Shown one piece after another: positions 222 to 11,530 of a DNA stretch of 44,015 nt. The stretch comes from Thermoplasmata archaeon (GTDB lineage Archaea; Thermoplasmatota; Thermoplasmata; Thermoplasmatales; Thermoplasmataceae). The stretch is taken from assembly GCA_021785735.1 (NCBI GenBank), contig JAJYEP010000002.1:1-44015 (forward strand), read 5' to 3'. The first letter of the stretch is position 1. Each line of letters opens with the position of its first letter. The notes beneath the pieces were generated by a model, which saw only the letters and a program-made list of their open reading frames with translations, was not told the origin of the DNA and did not search any database. A program made the translations under genes and the position numbers.

Positions 222-1331
222 GTGTTGATGGATTCACACTTCTCTCATTTTAGCGATGAAAAATTTCAGAATGAGCTTCTTGGAAAGTTGAATTTACTGC
301 AGTACTGCAAATCAATTGATGAACTTAGAGCTACGTGCAATCTTATCCTGGATATGATCAGGTTGAACCATGACTTTATGGCCAGTGATTTTTTGCCTTC
401 TGGTGATGCTGATATTAAGATTGGTTTGGAATCTCTGACCAAAGAACTGAAACAGATACGCGATTCCTTTACGTTTGAGCGAGGAATGTATTATACGCGC
501 AGGCTGTTAAAATCTCTCACGCAAAGTAGGACCACAAAAATAAATGATATAAATCTGCTGAGATGGAAAGATTATGGGGATATTCTCACAGACAGTTTCT
601 GGAGTTTTGAAAGACGGACGAGGCAGGGTTCACACAGCGGATGGTATTGGGGAAATTTTGTTCCGCAGATACCAAACCAGCTATTGCGAAGATATACAAA
701 GCAAAATGACTGGGTGCTTGATCCATTCTCTGGAAGCGGAACCACCTTAATCGAGTGCAAAAGACTTGGAAGAAACGGAGTCGGGATTGAACTGAACCCA
801 GCAGTTGTTCAGGAATCGAAAAAAGTAATTGACGCGGAAGATAATCCGTTTAATGTAAAGATCAATCTTCTTAATGCAGATAGTTCTGCTGCAACAAAGG
901 AAGATATTTTCGCTGATGCTCCTGTGAGTTCTTTTCAGTTCATTATTCTCCATCCCCCTTATTCCAACATAATAAGATTCAGCAAGGATTCCCGTGATCT
1001 GTCGAATTTCGAATCAACGTCGGACTTTCTCAGCGCATTCGAAAAGATAGTTGAAAACGTGAAAACTTATCTGGATGATGGAAGATACATGGGTCTCGTC
1101 ATTGGTGATAAGTTCAGCCACGGGGAATGGATTCCTCTTGGTTTTATGACAATGAATCAGGTACTGAAGCATGAATTCACTCTCAAAAGCATTGTGGTGA
1201 AAAACTTTGAGGATACACGTGGAAAACGCAACTCTTCAGATCTCTGGAGATACAGGGCTCTTTTGGGAGGATATTATGTGTTCAAACATGAGTACATATT
1301 TATATTCAGGAAGGAAAAAGGAAGGGATTGA
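222..1331 (+). CDS. Site-specific DNA methyltransferase (N4/N6-type, HPPY variant)
   Basis: SAM motif DPFSGSGTTLIECKRLGRNGVGIELNP followed by catalytic-type motif LHPPYSNI; start may be ATG at 228. Confidence 0.8.
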   Translation: MLMDSHFSHFSDEKFQNELLGKLNLLQYCKSIDELRATCNLILDMIRLNHDFMASDFLPSGDADIKIGLESLTKELKQIRDSFTFERGMYYTRRLLKSLTQSRTTKINDINLLRWKDYGDILTDSFWSFERRTRQGSHSGWYWGNFVPQIPNQLLRRYTKQNDWVLDPFSGSGTTLIECKRLGRNGVGIELNPAVVQESKKVIDAEDNPFNVKINLLNADSSAATKEDIFADAPVSSFQFIILHPPYSNIIRFSKDSRDLSNFESTSDFLSAFEKIVENVKTYLDDGRYMGLVIGDKFSHGEWIPLGFMTMNQVLKHEFTLKSIVVKNFEDTRGKRNSSDLWRYRALLGGYYVFKHEYIFIFRKEKGRD

Positions 1332-4025: not shown

Positions 4026-5705
4026 ATGACTAAATTTGTTCTTGTATCAGACAGTACTTTGAGTTATGAATACAGAAACTTTCCACTGTTAGATTTTCTC
4101 CCCTGTGCACCTTCCAGAAGCATACCTGCTTCGATATACAAATTCCTGAGAGGACCTGCTCCTCCAGCCAGGCCAAATGGTGAACTTCTCTTTGCACCAT
4201 ACGCATTGCGGAAACTGGAAGCTTCGCTCTTGAGAAAATACGATCGAAAAGATGTCGTTGTGGCACATGAGGACTATCTCCAGAATTTCATAAAGGACGA
4301 TACCGAAATAATTGGCATAACCACAATGGATCCCCTTGGAACCGGACCGACCACCATGTCATACTACGCCCTCATGGGCGGGGAAATGATGGCATGGGTG
4401 CGAAGAGACTGGGAGGAACTTATTGCAAAGATAAACGCCATAAGAAAAGGAAAAAAGGCCAAATTGATAGTGGGTGGTCCCGGTGTCTGGGAATTTACGG
4501 TAATGCCAGAGACCATAGAACAGTACAAATTTGATTATATATTCCAGGGTGAGGCCGACGATATTGCCCCACTTCTTTTCGAGCAGATTGTCGAAGATAA
4601 CATTGATCCGTCGCTCTTCTACCGCGGCTATATGTCCTATGATGATCATTTCCGGAGGGTCCTGAAGAAGGATGACAGGTTTATCGCCAGAGGGATCTCT
4701 GCGAGTGCGTATCCGAAGCTGGAAGACATTCCTGAAATAGTAAACCCTTCAGTGAAAGGCATGGTGGAGGTGATGAGGGGATGCGGTGTTGGATGCGACT
4801 TTTGCGAAGTCACGCTGAGGCCTTTGAGGTACTATTCTCCTGAAATGGTTGCAAGAGAACTTGCAGTGAATACAAGAGCCGGAATCAAGAACGCATGGCT
4901 GCATTCTGATGAGATATTCGGATACAAGCACGGAAACATGTTCGCTCCAAATGAGGAGGCTCTCACCGATCTCTTCAACGCAGCAATGTCTGTACCGGGA
5001 ATAGAGACCTCCAACCCGACGCATGGCAGAATTTCAATACCGGCAGGATATCCGGATATGATAGCGAAATTTTCCAAAATCCTGAAGGCCGGCCCTAAAA
5101 ACTGGATTGGCGTTCAGACCGGGGTTGAGACCGGAAGCGATGAACTGGCGAAGAAGCACATGCCAAACAAGACACTTCCCCTTCACATTGGACCGGATGG
5201 ATCCTGGAGGGAAATCGTATGGCAGGGTGTTTACGTTGAGACCAGAAATTACTGGAGACCTGCATTTACAATTCAGGTGGGGCAGGAGGGAGAGACGGAG
5301 GAGGATTACTGGGATACTATTGGTATGATTAACAATCTGAGTCACTCCTTTGTTGACGGCAGGCCATTTGAATTCACCATCACGCCGCTTGTGAATGTTC
5401 CTCTCGGCAGGATAAAGTCGCATACGCTGAACAAGAGCCTTCTAACCAGGGATCAGCTTGCAGTTTATTATGCATCATACCTGCATCTTGCCAAGATAGC
5501 TGCGAGGGACGGTTTCCGTGATACAGAGGGCAATTTCTTTGCCAGAGCAGGCACAGGATCCCTGATTTCCGGTGGCGGTTTCCTGATGCTAAAATATGTT
5601 GAGAGGATTGCGAGAAAGGCTGGCGTTGATATTGAGAAGATAAAGAGTTATGGTGTTCCGTCCACGCGGGAGATCAGTTCCATGAGCCAGCTCGCCAGGG
5701 CATGA
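4026..5705 (+). CDS. Radical SAM protein with B12-binding-like N-terminal region
   Basis: CGVGCDFC (CxxxCxxC) cluster motif; N-terminal Rossmann-like region IVGGPGVWEF, FQGEAD; AGGTGA upstream of ATG. Confidence 0.8.
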   Translation: MTKFVLVSDSTLSYEYRNFPLLDFLPCAPSRSIPASIYKFLRGPAPPARPNGELLFAPYALRKLEASLLRKYDRKDVVVAHEDYLQNFIKDDTEIIGITTMDPLGTGPTTMSYYALMGGEMMAWVRRDWEELIAKINAIRKGKKAKLIVGGPGVWEFTVMPETIEQYKFDYIFQGEADDIAPLLFEQIVEDNIDPSLFYRGYMSYDDHFRRVLKKDDRFIARGISASAYPKLEDIPEIVNPSVKGMVEVMRGCGVGCDFCEVTLRPLRYYSPEMVARELAVNTRAGIKNAWLHSDEIFGYKHGNMFAPNEEALTDLFNAAMSVPGIETSNPTHGRISIPAGYPDMIAKFSKILKAGPKNWIGVQTGVETGSDELAKKHMPNKTLPLHIGPDGSWREIVWQGVYVETRNYWRPAFTIQVGQEGETEEDYWDTIGMINNLSHSFVDGRPFEFTITPLVNVPLGRIKSHTLNKSLLTRDQLAVYYASYLHLAKIAARDGFRDTEGNFFARAGTGSLISGGGFLMLKYVERIARKAGVDIEKIKSYGVPSTREISSMSQLARA

Positions 5706-5788: not shown

Positions 5789-7561
5789 GTGAAATCCGGC
5801 GATTCTTTCCTTGGTTTGACATTTGAATTCTCCAGCACTGATAAGAAGGAACTACTGGAACAGATCACAGAAAACTATTATCGCATCTTCTCACAGAGAC
5901 CCACTATAAGCCTCAGTCAGTCATGGTCCGGGTCGATAGACATACTAAAAAAATCAGTCGCCGATGGCATACCGGTCATAATAGAGTATATCTTTCCAAT
6001 AGGTCTTGAAAGGGTTGATTTCATTCTGGTGGGTTCAGGAAGGGCATTGCTAATCGAGATGAAAGGGTGGAAGAAATATGAGGAGCTGAACGAATATGTG
6101 GTAAGCACCGATCTTGGAATGCAACCTCCTCCCTGCTATCAGGCAGAAAATTATCTGTCCAAATTTCAGAATTTCCACAGCGCCGGTAAGGATATGAATT
6201 TCGACAGTTGTGTAATGATGTATCATACCACCGACGGAAAGGATTGCCAGATCTTTTATTCCCCCGAGGAACTGAGCAGGAAGATCTCGCCGATACGGGA
6301 AAACCCCGGGAATCGTGAAGACGTAGAGAAAATAATTGAGGGACATTTTGTGTTTTCAAAACCCCTGATAGACTTTGTGAAAATGAATAAGGACCGCCTG
6401 CTTGAATCGCCATCAAGAGCACTCCAGGGTAGCGGTTTAGGCCTTTCCTCTGATCAGTCCGTTGCAGTGGGAAGAGTGCTGTTGAATCTGAGGAAAGGGG
6501 AGTCTACGGTTTATTTAATAAGGGGCACCATGGGATCCGGAAAAACTCTTGTCGCACTTACCATGCTTTTCACTGCGGTGAGCCAGGGTTTCCATGCCCT
6601 TCTCGGGTACAGAAACAACCGTCTTATCAACACCCTAAGAAAATCTGTTGATCCAAGAGTGAGGGATCTTCTCCAGTTTTACTCCACCGGGTTTTACGGA
6701 ACCGGCATAGGTGAGCCAAACTTCAGGGATTCCTTCATTAAGGACGGACTGGACCTCGTGATCTACGATGAGGCGCAGCGCATGACAAAATCTGTCATTG
6801 AGCTTTCCATGATCAGATCGCCCGTCTCTGTCTATTTTTTTGACGAGGAGCAGATTCTTCTGGGAGACGAGCAAGGAACAAGGGATAACTTTCTCCAGAT
6901 CGCCAGGGCCCATGGAAAGAATGTGGTGGAAATTGAGCTGAACGGTATATACAGGGTCAGGGACGGAAGAAGATATGACATATTCCTGAGATCGCTGCTT
7001 TCAGGGTCCCCTGAAAAAGTTTCCTTCGATTATGACTTCAGATGCTACAGCGATCTTTCGTTGCTGCTAAAAGAGCTTGAGATGCACAGCAAGAAGGGGG
7101 AAAAGGTTGCTCTTGTTGCATCCTTCACTGAGAGCGAAGGAAGAAAGGTCAAGGTGAGAATTAGGGAACCGCATATAGAATGGCTGATGGACCCTAAAAC
7201 TGAGTACCCGGCCTACTGGATAGATCAGGTGGATGTGCTGAAGAAGTGTGCCTCCGTATATGGTTCACAGGGATTCGAGGCCGACTTTGTGGGCGTAATC
7301 TGGGGAAAGGATCTTGTCTGGAGGAATGGATGGAAAATAGATCCCGGTGCCATCACAGATGATGTGGGAGGTCAGAATTCCCTCAAGCGGCTTTCAGTCA
7401 CGAACACTCAGATGGCAAGGGAGCTCTTGGTCAACCGCTACAGAATACTTCTAACAAGAGGGATAAAGGGCACGTTTGTATATTTTGAGGACAATGAGAC
7501 CATGAAATACGTTGAATCGATGACCCCCGGAGCACTCATTAAGGATGTCACTACGGGGTGA
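5789..7561 (+). CDS. DUF2075-family helicase (Schlafen group 3-like) with N-terminal PD-(D/E)XK-like nuclease region
   Basis: Walker A GTMGSGKT, DEAQ box LVIYDEAQR, YGSQGFEADFVGVIWGKDL and NRYRILLTRGIKGTFVYFED typical of DUF2075; N-terminal EY..RVDFILVGSGRALLIEMKGW fits E-D-ExK; GTG start. Confidence 0.8.
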   Translation: MKSGDSFLGLTFEFSSTDKKELLEQITENYYRIFSQRPTISLSQSWSGSIDILKKSVADGIPVIIEYIFPIGLERVDFILVGSGRALLIEMKGWKKYEELNEYVVSTDLGMQPPPCYQAENYLSKFQNFHSAGKDMNFDSCVMMYHTTDGKDCQIFYSPEELSRKISPIRENPGNREDVEKIIEGHFVFSKPLIDFVKMNKDRLLESPSRALQGSGLGLSSDQSVAVGRVLLNLRKGESTVYLIRGTMGSGKTLVALTMLFTAVSQGFHALLGYRNNRLINTLRKSVDPRVRDLLQFYSTGFYGTGIGEPNFRDSFIKDGLDLVIYDEAQRMTKSVIELSMIRSPVSVYFFDEEQILLGDEQGTRDNFLQIARAHGKNVVEIELNGIYRVRDGRRYDIFLRSLLSGSPEKVSFDYDFRCYSDLSLLLKELEMHSKKGEKVALVASFTESEGRKVKVRIREPHIEWLMDPKTEYPAYWIDQVDVLKKCASVYGSQGFEADFVGVIWGKDLVWRNGWKIDPGAITDDVGGQNSLKRLSVTNTQMARELLVNRYRILLTRGIKGTFVYFEDNETMKYVESMTPGALIKDVTTG

Positions 7562-7624
7562 AACTGAACCTCATGGTCTTTTTCATTTCCTTCGGGTGTT
7601 AATGATATTCTTTCATAACCCGAA

Positions 7625-8785
7625 TTGAAACTTAAAATTCAGGTAACGAATCAGGACAGGTTCATCATGCTGCTTGTACGTGATCCTGAACCTCTCGATT
7701 CATCATATATTCCGGAAAAGATCAATCTCAGGTCCAGGGAAATCAAGTACATAAATCAGAATCTCGTTGCACCATTGCGGGAGGGAAAAGGTTCAACGCT
7801 TATGGCTTATGGTAATTCTGGCGTTGGCAAAACTGTGACCGCCAAATATATCATCAGGGAAAATAGTGATCTCATAACCGTTTATGAGAACGCGCTTTCC
7901 TCCTCAAGCCTGAGGCAGGTCATCTCGGATGCCCTAATGAAAATGGGCAGGATTAACACCGTGAGCAACATCGGATTCGACTACATTTTCAAGACGATGA
8001 AAACCCTCTCCCTGGAAAAGAAGAAAAACATACTGCTGATCATAGATGAGGCAAGAAACGTGGTCAGATCCGATCCGGAAGGTTTCCGCAGCCTTGTTAT
8101 GGCCAGCGAGTCCTACGGGTTTGGACTGTCCACCATGCTCATTTCAATCGAGAATCCCATGATCTACGTCCAGGGAGATCTCATAAGGCCGGGATACCCT
8201 GTTTTCATGCTCAAATTCAGCCCTTACACGAGGAGTGAGCTGTTCGGAATATTGAAGGAACGCTGCGACCAGAGCCTTGTTGAGTCTGCTTATGATGATG
8301 TTCTTATTGATTTCATAGCAGGCATAGCGGAGCAGTTTGGGAGCGCAAGAGTCGCCATAGAACTCCTTCAGAAGGCTGCCCACCTTGCCGAGTACAGGGG
8401 TGGGGATTACGTATCCAGCGACGATGTGCGAGCTGCAAGAGCGATGATCAACCCCTTCTTTACAGAGAGCAAGCTTTCGGAGCTTGATGCGGGTGAACTG
8501 ATTGCCCTGCTTTCCATATGCAAGTGCATCGGGAGCGGCATAAGAACCAATGTCAGCTGTGTTTCCAGGTCTGCTGCACAGCTTCGGGAAGAATACAGCA
8601 TGCCCAGGATCAGGAATTTCAATCTGTACAGGATTTTGAGAAAACTTGAGAATTCCGGACTGATAGAGAGTAAGATTATTGGGCTTGGAGATCGGAGAGG
8701 AGTGAACAAGGTGATCGAAATAAACGATCTTCCTGTATCCGTACTTTCAGAAAAGATCCAGAGTCTTATTGAAAGGCTTCTCTGA
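7625..8785 (+). CDS. Orc1/Cdc6-family AAA+ ATPase (replication initiator or paralog)
   Basis: N-terminal VRDPEPLDSSYIPEKI; Walker A YGNSGVGKT; Walker B LLIIDEA; sensor-2-like FGSARVAIELLQKA; C-terminal winged-helix LSELDAGELIALLSIC...LENSGLIE. TTG start, ATG at 7667 alternative. Confidence 0.85.
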   Translation: MKLKIQVTNQDRFIMLLVRDPEPLDSSYIPEKINLRSREIKYINQNLVAPLREGKGSTLMAYGNSGVGKTVTAKYIIRENSDLITVYENALSSSSLRQVISDALMKMGRINTVSNIGFDYIFKTMKTLSLEKKKNILLIIDEARNVVRSDPEGFRSLVMASESYGFGLSTMLISIENPMIYVQGDLIRPGYPVFMLKFSPYTRSELFGILKERCDQSLVESAYDDVLIDFIAGIAEQFGSARVAIELLQKAAHLAEYRGGDYVSSDDVRAARAMINPFFTESKLSELDAGELIALLSICKCIGSGIRTNVSCVSRSAAQLREEYSMPRIRNFNLYRILRKLENSGLIESKIIGLGDRRGVNKVIEINDLPVSVLSEKIQSLIERLL

Positions 8786-10765
8786 TACACCTATTGATTT
8801 TCTTGCCCATGAGATTATGAAATCAAAGCTTTCGAAGGATCTTTCAAGAATTTTCCTGTAAAATTCCCTGTCTATTCCATGATTTGAATCATCTACGTCA
8901 AACAGATTTCTCCTGTTGTCTATAACGGAGATATAAAATTCCTGCCCTGGCATGATTTCAACCTCACTGCCGAATGATTCCATCGCCCTCTTTGTCATGT
9001 TCCTGACCCTGTACTGATCCTTCCATTTTGAAGGTGAAACCCTTATGCGGAAATCATCACTGTCAGACTGCCTGATCTTCTCAATATAGCTTCTCTCCAG
9101 GTTCTTTATTGTATCATATCTGGAAGAGATGTCCGATACATTTCTGCAGTTCTGTAAAGTTGCCAGTGCATCCATCTGGAACTTCCTGACTATCCCGGGT
9201 GAGTTTTTCTGCCTTATCTCGATGCCGCGAACCTTGAAAGATCCGTCTTTCCTCAATCCTATGTACCTGTTGACAGCACCTATTTCGCTTCGTGACGGAA
9301 GAAATGCTATCCATTCATATTGGCCGTCTGCCACTATGTCTATTCTGGTCCTTTCCTTTATTGCGGAAAGCAGGCGATCTATTGATCCCTTCCCGCTGAT
9401 CCAGAGAGAATCGACTATACCGTGTATGACTGAGAATCCCATTGATTCGGCGATCTTCATGGCATCTGAGAGACATTTTCTCCCCGTGGAGGTGATTGAT
9501 TCATGGACCTCGATCTTTCCAAATTTTGCATTCTTATATCCTGTATATCCAAATGAGGTGAGCAGCATCCATTTTAATGCAGTATCTCTCTGACCGTAAA
9601 CTGAATCGGATCCCTTCACCGATTTATAGTGAAGCCTTGTTCTGAGGAGTCCCTCGAGAGCCAGTGACAGAAAACCTCTTTCTTCCTTCACAGCATAGTA
9701 ATCTGCCTCTTCCCCTGTGATACTGTTCCTGGAAATGGTTTCAGGAGACAGGTTATAGTTGACTATTATGCTTGGATACATTGATGAAAAATCTATCTCG
9801 GTAACGTCTGTGTATATTCCTGGAGTGGGTTGCAACACCGTTCCGCCCATATCCATCCTTGAAAGATCTGAAATGTTTTTTTCTGCCTCATAGTCGCTTT
9901 TATACAGCGGCACAAGAACGTTATTCTTTATGGCATATGATATTTCAAGCGATGATACCGCGGTGCCCGGAGTAACATATGAGACCATGGAAGGTGGAAG
10001 AGATGACATCCTTGACACTTCCATTAAGCCCGAGATGCCGGCTTCGCTGTAAACGAACGAATTTTCCTCTATGCATATCTTTCCTTTCAGGCTGACTCTT
10101 CCATTATTGTGATGCACCTGCCCATACGAAGTATATGTTCCCCCGTTTGAGAAGTGGCTTGCCGGAACCTCAATGCCTGCGTCCTTCATGGCAGAGATCA
10201 ATCTCCTGAAAAAATCATGATTGTTATTGTAAATGACAAATACGGACCCGTTGATTTCATCGATCAAATCCTCGTAAGACTCACGCGATGGCTTCATTTC
10301 TCTGCCATTGATTTCCATGGTCGTTACTTCGTTGTTGCGCATCCTGCCGCTTATCCTCGTGAACGGAATATCTGGATCATGATCATCCAGTCTTTCCAGT
10401 GGAAAAAATGTGAGGTTGTTTTCTGAAGTGTATCTCAGTTGCGGGTTTATGTCGGCGTTGTATATGCTGAACTTTCTCCCGACTCCCATGCAATCGATCG
10501 CATACACCAGATCCTTTATTTTTGAAGGTTTTGTGTGAATCTTTACACCCTGGAATGTGCCATAGATATCTTTTCCCTCCTCTCTCTGATAATTTTTGTA
10601 GTCGGAGTTCTCCAACTGGTTTTCAAGAAAATCCATGTCGTATTCCGATCCGGATATGAATATCCAGGTGTCGTTTCTTTTTCTTTCCTTTGAAATCTTA
10701 TCTCCTGCATAATACCACAGTTCTATTATGTCCAGGCCTGTGGCATTTATAAGATAATCATTCAT
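8747..10765 (-). CDS. Divergent B-family DNA polymerase, PolB2-like ('inactivated' PolB lineage)
   Basis: Motif A DFSSMYPSII, motif B ALKWMLLTSFGYTGYKNAKFGKIEVHESITSTGRK, motif C VIHGIVDSLWI (DTDS->IVDS), followed by NRYIGLRKDGSFKVRGIEI; no clear ExoI DxE motif. Confidence 0.85.
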   Translation of the reverse strand: MNDYLINATGLDIIELWYYAGDKISKERKRNDTWIFISGSEYDMDFLENQLENSDYKNYQREEGKDIYGTFQGVKIHTKPSKIKDLVYAIDCMGVGRKFSIYNADINPQLRYTSENNLTFFPLERLDDHDPDIPFTRISGRMRNNEVTTMEINGREMKPSRESYEDLIDEINGSVFVIYNNNHDFFRRLISAMKDAGIEVPASHFSNGGTYTSYGQVHHNNGRVSLKGKICIEENSFVYSEAGISGLMEVSRMSSLPPSMVSYVTPGTAVSSLEISYAIKNNVLVPLYKSDYEAEKNISDLSRMDMGGTVLQPTPGIYTDVTEIDFSSMYPSIIVNYNLSPETISRNSITGEEADYYAVKEERGFLSLALEGLLRTRLHYKSVKGSDSVYGQRDTALKWMLLTSFGYTGYKNAKFGKIEVHESITSTGRKCLSDAMKIAESMGFSVIHGIVDSLWISGKGSIDRLLSAIKERTRIDIVADGQYEWIAFLPSRSEIGAVNRYIGLRKDGSFKVRGIEIRQKNSPGIVRKFQMDALATLQNCRNVSDISSRYDTIKNLERSYIEKIRQSDSDDFRIRVSPSKWKDQYRVRNMTKRAMESFGSEVEIMPGQEFYISVIDNRRNLFDVDDSNHGIDREFYRKILERSFESFDFIISWARKSIGVSEKPFNKTLDLF

Positions 10766-11001
10766 TTTAGATCATTCAGGATCTTGTCTACATCTTTCAT
10801 GATCTCTATAAGTATGGAGACTATGAAGCCTATTTCTGGATTCATTCCTGCAGTTGAGACTTCAGGAGAGTGCAATTTTCCCATTTTTATAAGTTCATGA
10901 AGATATGGTATATCCTCCGATCTCATCATGGATTCCATTTTGCCGTAAACAGCGGATATGGAATTGAAATACTGTCTTACTGTAGGAGTGCTTCTTCCCA
11001 T
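10762..11001 (-). CDS. Small helical protein in operon with PolB2-like polymerase
   Basis: 79 aa ORF with 4-bp ATGA overlap with the polymerase start and overlap with the upstream gene, consistent with translational coupling. Confidence 0.7.
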   Translation of the reverse strand: MGRSTPTVRQYFNSISAVYGKMESMMRSEDIPYLHELIKMGKLHSPEVSTAGMNPEIGFIVSILIEIMKDVDKILNDLK

Positions 11002-11441
11002 GTGTACAGACCATTCCTGTATTTGGTGGTGTCAATGGGATTGTAGAATTTCTTTCCAAAGTAATTCTCAAATATGCCATGCTGTCCAACAATAAGCGTT
11101 TCCATGATGCATCCGTAGAAATTGCTTTTGATCCTCATGATGTCATAGAGACTCTCCATCACGTGGACTGACCATGAATCAATGATGTCGGATCTTATGC
11201 AGATCATGTACGGGTAATTATCCGATTCCATCAGTATTCTTTCCAGCTGATAGGGCGTAAGAATTCTCTGTATCTTCAGTTTGCCGTCGGCATCATTCTG
11301 CTTTATGACCTCAGGATCTATTATTATTCCATCAGACAGTATGAGATGTATGGTGTCCTCTGACCGAAACTTGTCCAAGAACGCAACAACAGACGACTGC
11401 TCAAATTTATCTTCTCTCCATATCTTTAGTCTTCCTGACAT
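10977..11441 (-). CDS. Hypothetical protein, first gene of the PolB2-like operon
   Basis: 154 aa ORF, same strand, overlaps the next gene by 25 bp; alternating strand/helix pattern (IHLILSDGIIID, YPYMICIRSDII). Confidence 0.7.
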   Translation of the reverse strand: MSGRLKIWREDKFEQSSVVAFLDKFRSEDTIHLILSDGIIIDPEVIKQNDADGKLKIQRILTPYQLERILMESDNYPYMICIRSDIIDSWSVHVMESLYDIMRIKSNFYGCIMETLIVGQHGIFENYFGKKFYNPIDTTKYRNGLYTWEEALLQ

Positions 11442-11530
11442 TAATTACATAACAAAGAGTGACAAAAAAGGTTTGTGCAACGTTTGTAAAATGAGCAAGT
11501 GGTTCTACATGCGCCATCCGCAATTAAAAA

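Follow-up and report, generated by a model that had tools for sequence, protein, structure and literature searches.

A tandem promoter box at the PolB2 mutasome locus of Thermoplasmatales and its candidate reader, a convergent Orc1/Cdc6 paralog

What unites a divergent family-B DNA polymerase, two small proteins, an Orc1/Cdc6 paralog and a DUF2075 helicase that lie side by side in the genome of a Thermoplasmata archaeon? The genes form part of a stretch of 44,015 nucleotides, here called the window (assembly GCA_021785735.1, contig JAJYEP010000002.1), which comes from an assembly of 1.17 Mb that is 77% complete. A first-pass annotation had read all five as one damage-tolerance or defence module, and all five open reading frames (ORFs) are confirmed at the positions that it assigned to them (Table 1). 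Comparison with related genomes identifies the locus as the operon of a PolB2 mutasome (iRadA-PPB2-PolB2), to which an Orc1/Cdc6-type paralog stands tail to tail. This four-gene locus is itself known biology, to which the helicase is one wrongly added gene. Absent from the earlier annotation is a box in the mutasome promoter, whose recurrence before other genes hints, at the level of sequence, that these archaea may have a damage response of the SOS type.

The four-gene locus

The comparison covered 77 genomes of the Thermoplasmatales family, in which 61 loci were read, namely that of the window and 60 related ones. Orc is convergent with PolB2 in all 61 loci and the gene ends overlap in 48 of them; the order iRadA-PPB2-PolB2 is kept in each of the 60 complete loci, and all four genes follow one another in the same order in 60 of the 61. 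An arrangement that recurs across 60 other loci of the family is far from chance. The three minus-strand genes, which overlap one another, make up the PolB2 mutasome already known from publications. They share with the PolB2 (Dpo2)-PPB2-iRadA operon of the literature (PMC4104785; PMC11791011; both cited here and below from excerpts) the gene order, the N-terminal MGR arm with Arg3 and Arg9, the form of polymerase motif C, a RecA-fold iRadA that lacks Walker A, and an orc1/cdc6 gene in the neighbourhood. The earlier proposal that the polymerase and the two small proteins form a mutasome-like complex thus agrees with published work. Its companion statement, that no description of such a compact grouping was known, holds only by virtue of the helicase, whereas the operon, its bacterial relatives adjoining lexA and its frequent archaeal orc1/cdc6 neighbour had already been reported (Makarova 2014, PMC4104785; Timinskas 2025, PMC11791011). 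Two differences from those descriptions are that the iRadA of the window is short (154 aa) and that in this family Orc always converges on PolB2, in most cases with an overlap.

PolB2 of the window scores 595 bits against profile NF004416 (cut-off 516). The aspartate of motif A and the second aspartate of motif C are present in all 61 family sequences, and the first aspartate of motif C is replaced in all of them, by Ile in 54 and by Val in seven; a motif C without its first aspartate is described for PolB2 in PMC11791011. Unlike the published enzymes, PolB2 of the window has D-M in place of the conserved D(K/R) motif. Pfam assigns the window protein a DNA_pol_B domain alone, with no exonuclease domain, indicating that a recognisable proofreading domain has been lost. 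Targeted mutagenesis in S. islandicus requires PolB2 (PMC11791011), and PMC8764526, by its title, presents PolB2 as an extender in translesion synthesis. The C-terminus of the window protein (KPFNKTLDLF, within 8747-8780) resembles a PCNA-binding motif, and the C-termini of its relatives vary widely. Fragmented PolB2 frames or in-frame stops occur at G056:C7, G069:C39/C148, G002:C25 and G003:C22, either because the genes are decaying or because the assembly is faulty or the translated match has gaps.

The two small subunits carry the expected signatures. PPB2 is recognised by its N-terminal MGRT arm with Arg3 and Arg9, which in the published models inserts between PolB2 and iRadA (PMC11791011); Met1, Gly2, Arg3 and Arg9 are invariant in 31 of 31 aligned orthologues. 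Its predicted model is all-helical (pLDDT 92.9) and gave no significant match in Foldseek, where sigma domains, the expected likeness of PPB2 being to the N-terminal domains of sigma factors, appeared at E about 3 only. A sequence-profile search of the PDB with iRadA returned chance matches only, and this protein was therefore compared by fold. The best Foldseek matches of its AlphaFold model (pLDDT 84.5) are RecA (1ubg; E 3.5e-4, probability 1.00, TM 0.56), UvsX and RAD51 paralogs. There is no GxxxxGK[ST] motif in the window iRadA and no conserved P-loop across the 31-orthologue alignment.

Table 1. Positions of the genes and the promoter box within the window
Feature	Coordinates	Strand	Remarks
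Radical-SAM/B12-type protein	4026..5705	+	directly upstream of orc in 37 related loci
SLFN-g3/DUF2075 helicase, PD-(D/E)XK-like N-terminus, 590 aa	5789..7561	+	separates radical-SAM from orc only in the window genome
Orc1/Cdc6 paralog (arORC2-like), candidate regulator	7667..8785	+	convergent with PolB2, 39-bp tail-to-tail overlap
PolB2, divergent family-B polymerase, 672 aa	8747..10765	-	motif C IVD instead of DxD; 4-bp overlap with PPB2
PPB2 (arCOG07300-type), small 79-aa subunit of the mutasome, helical	10762..11001	-	invariant MGR arm, Arg9; 25-bp overlap with iRadA
iRadA, inactivated RadA-like mutasome subunit, 154 aa	10977..11441	-	RecA-like fold; Walker A missing
Tandem direct-repeat promoter box ACCACTTGCTCATTTTAC	11486..11503	-	44 nt before iRadA ATG; position weight matrix score 19.4

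The promoter box and the genes behind it

The mutasome promoters of the family have in common a tandem direct repeat of the CTCATTTT type, with the consensus CTCATTTTCTCATTTT; in most loci its 3' end is 43-47 nt upstream of the iRadA start codon. Scored with a position weight matrix, 54 of 59 promoters (58 related ones plus that of the window) reach at least 15, compared with 10.8 for shuffled sequences at the 99% level. Searches of the 77 family genomes gave about 110 matches to the strict pattern against 15 to its reverse; a gap-coded pattern that includes the spacing to an ATG gave 99 against 4 in the reversed control, and a CACTT variant, again with its spacing, 15 against 4. The spacing is similar beyond the mutasome as well: at 80 non-mutasome sites, fetched by the strict pattern with no condition on spacing and considered with ORFs of at least 50 aa, the ATG starts peak sharply at 42-53 nt (23, compared with 0-5 per 6-nt bin elsewhere).

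A TATA-like peak is seen at -31 to -25, with the box just upstream of it, a position that suits an activator. The same position, as well as the small number of copies per genome and the near absence of the reversed pattern, argues against the view of the box as a common core-promoter element or as a T-rich repeat preserved by chance. That view has in its favour that the box is T-rich and that its distance to start codons is fixed, as for core promoter elements, but the spaced pattern had only about 15 matches in total, near background, among 173 genomes that represent other families of the class, and we consider the view very unlikely. No box was found at 20 PolB2 loci in those other families. 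Nor do the excerpted accounts of the mutasome mention a tandem promoter box, and a literature search of openly readable main texts returned nothing relevant on the box sequence or on a damage regulon in Thermoplasmata. As far as that search reached, the family-wide box and its recurrence before repair and small-protein genes are apparently undescribed.

The genes that follow the box elsewhere are of several kinds. In three loci from two genera (L046-L048) it stands 47 nt before orc itself, and in three genomes from two genera it precedes genes of the Nre repair family; nreA mutants of Haloferax are sensitive to mitomycin (PMC7776575). The box also precedes several families of small proteins of 55-90 aa. 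Three of these span genera, the phmmer E values of cross-genus pairs ranging from about 1e-20 to about 1e-2: C (g1, g6, g7 and g9), D (g8, g17 and g18) and E (g6, g7 and g12). The box-associated small families gave no Pfam match above cut-off, and their members may, when induced by damage, modulate checkpoints or polymerases. Further genes behind the box encode a 61-aa family, a protein resembling AbrB/MazE and a MoxR-type ATPase.

This range of targets bears on the nature of the regulon. Since most box-bearing genes encode uncharacterised small proteins, and since a MoxR-type ATPase and an AbrB/MazE-like protein are among them, the box could mark a general stress or cell-cycle regulon of which the mutasome is one member. 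Its most widely conserved target, however, is a translesion polymerase operon and another is the Nre repair family, and we regard such a general regulon as quite unlikely, favouring one devoted to DNA damage.

The small-protein families noticed behind the box include three worth describing by their size and loci. One, of about 60-69 aa with the motif G(R/K)x(E/D)Q(L/Y/F)..D, occurs in four genera (L143, L148, L162, L165, L167, L175, L240-L242 and L207) and has no Pfam match. The other two, of 56-58 aa (L212, L229 and L182) and of 66-92 aa (L235, L208, L237, L142 and L177), occur in three genera each. In addition, a box that is nearly the same, CATTTACTCATTTT, accompanies TnpB/IS-type ORFs (L152-L155 in genome G039, and G041:C21:10291), at about 46 nt from a start codon on its downstream side; a mobile element may have taken up the same operator.

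The Orc paralog as candidate regulator

A housekeeping Orc is present in nearly every genome of the family. The Orc that is tied to PolB2 is a second paralog, about 25% identical to the housekeeping protein, which is found in the window genome and in most of its relatives. Although the ORF was listed as 7625-8785, alignment of orthologues moves its start from TTG 7625 to the ATG given in Table 1. The protein matches the Cdc6 AAA+ lid (E 9.9e-18) and, under the cut-off of that model, TIGR02928 orc1/cdc6 (E 1.6e-36). Its Walker A (GxxGxGKT) and Walker B (DE) motifs are invariant in 21 sequences, and its putative C-terminal winged-helix region, which scores 15.4 bits against Cdc6_C (cut-off 25.1), can be aligned and is partly conserved among orthologues.

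Orc and PolB2 occur together in 64 of the 77 genomes and are both absent from the other 13, which include genomes that are 99% complete (G023, G024, G026 and, from a second genus, G054). PolB2 and PPB2 are also kept outside the family, but the 20 PolB2 loci there have no Orc within a distance of about 5 kb, and in more distant members of the class a second Orc is often present, unlinked. We conclude that, within the class, the convergent coupling of Orc with PolB2 is a trait of this family.

The closest characterised parallel is Orc1-2 of Saccharolobus, a non-initiator that acts as a global regulator of the damage response, binding ANTTTC in promoters, its own included, with the ATP form active (PMC9738581). 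By analogy with this protein, our proposal is that the box serves as a binding site for the linked Orc paralog. As in the Orc1-2/DDRE system of Saccharolobus islandicus, an Orc paralog with intact AAA+ motifs and a putative C-terminal winged-helix region exists beside the housekeeping Orc, and a short asymmetric promoter element is present, which in two genera here stands before orc itself. The systems differ in that they belong to different archaeal phyla, in that a tandem 8-bp repeat takes the place of a single hexamer, and in that the binding of the Orc of this family to its box is inferred. The box itself was considered as a DDRE element and rejected, as the exact ANTTTC hexamer is missing from ACCACTTGCTCATTTTAC in the window; the family consensus CATTTTCTCATTTT contains it.

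Following this analogy, DNA damage would lead the ATP-bound Orc paralog to bind the box, which lies immediately before the TATA region, and to activate transcription. iRadA, PPB2 and PolB2 would next form a translesion complex, whose extension past lesions would come at the price of mutations, and the small proteins under the same control would modulate replication, repair or the cell cycle. An Orc-controlled regulon of the damage type, with the PolB2 mutasome as its core output, is the reading that we consider probable, with both the binding of the box by Orc and its induction by damage argued from the analogy. Whether this amounts to a Thermoplasmatales SOS-like regulon, run by the Orc paralog through the tandem CTCATTTT box and extending to the mutasome, to orc in some genera, to Nre and to the 55-90 aa families, seems to us an evenly balanced matter. 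The likeness to the bacterial SOS response, with its LexA box and Pol V mutasome, lies in scattered genes under a common operator, among them those for small proteins and for a translesion polymerase that has a RecA-like partner; the difference is that there is no LexA here, the candidate regulator being an Orc-type AAA+ protein that is probably an activator.

The main rival explanation gives Orc a different task, that of a loader or alternative initiation factor by which the mutasome would be recruited to origins or to forks that have stalled, and leaves the box to another protein such as a TFB paralog or an unlinked regulator. An alternative initiation role was proposed from the same gene linkage by Makarova 2014 (PMC4104785), and a TFB paralog is described, in the title of a paper on the subject, as a damage-response activator in archaea. 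The position of orc fits this rival too, since a gene convergent to the mutasome genes lies outside their operon. On the other hand, absence of the box parallels absence of the linked Orc, both outside the family and in the 99%-complete genomes that lack Orc; in the three loci from two genera the box precedes orc at the same spacing; and Orc1-2, the closest functional analogue, is a promoter-binding regulator. We therefore judge the loader explanation unlikely, though by no means negligible. The suggestion of the first-pass annotation that the Orc paralog may serve as a regulator fits the evidence, and orc is a neighbour of the operon in published work as well.

Several observations weigh against control by Orc. 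Most genomes, that of the window included, have no box before orc, which also counts for the loader explanation. Joint absence of Orc and PolB2 from incomplete genomes may represent a single missing contig, the genes being adjacent, and the Orc-less genome G032 retains box-like sites. The weight matrix was trained on the same promoters that it scored. That unlinked genes share one operator at a fixed promoter position is true across the family, whereas in the window genome, 77% complete, the mutasome copy is the sole gap-coded match. Finally, ANTTTC, which is a weak match in any case, does not occur exactly in the window box.

If control by the Orc paralog is correct, Orc-type regulators may play the role of LexA more widely in archaea; as far as the literature was found, an Orc-controlled damage response has been reported in Sulfolobales only. 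The box-bearing genes and small proteins provide a concrete list of candidates, and the cultivable Ferroplasma acidarmanus carries both the locus and the box.

The helicase and other neighbours

The helicase is assigned by Pfam to the SLFN-g3 (DUF2075) family (E 6.8e-61) and has a weak NERD-like nuclease N-terminus with the signature ..VDFILV..LLIEMKG... In the window it adjoins orc on the same strand, and it matches candidate defence models weakly (PADLOC; PDC-S41, E 4.5e-20); these are the features that favour a five-gene damage-tolerance or defence module in which a helicase-nuclease is the end-processing enzyme. Synteny already contradicts such a module. The helicase is found in none of the 60 related loci, so that the clustering of five genes holds for the window genome only. 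Lack of synteny in relatives, which the first-pass annotation had named as grounds for refutation, applies to the helicase and not to the other four genes. In the same genus the radical-SAM gene and orc are 15 nt apart with no helicase, and among loci that have both genes only the window, with the helicase, and L036, with unrelated ORFs, have anything between them. Helicase homologues do occur in 36 of the 77 genomes, at other places, and outside the mutasome locus in every relative read. We give the five-gene module almost no credence and, having rejected the helicase as a member, conclude that it is a separately inserted passenger, possibly a defence gene. Its flanks contain short chance repeats only and no target-site duplication.

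The radical-SAM gene, in contrast, is a regular neighbour. It precedes orc by -4 to 76 nt in 37 loci, both same-genus ones included, and is probably a co-transcription partner of orc. Where present, its homologues are mostly 68-81% identical, often with a 4-nt overlap with orc. Further upstream in the window (222-1331) lies an N6/N4 DNA methylase (PADLOC MTase_II, E 3.7e-133), a homologue of which is found in the same-genus loci just upstream of the radical-SAM gene and on the same strand.

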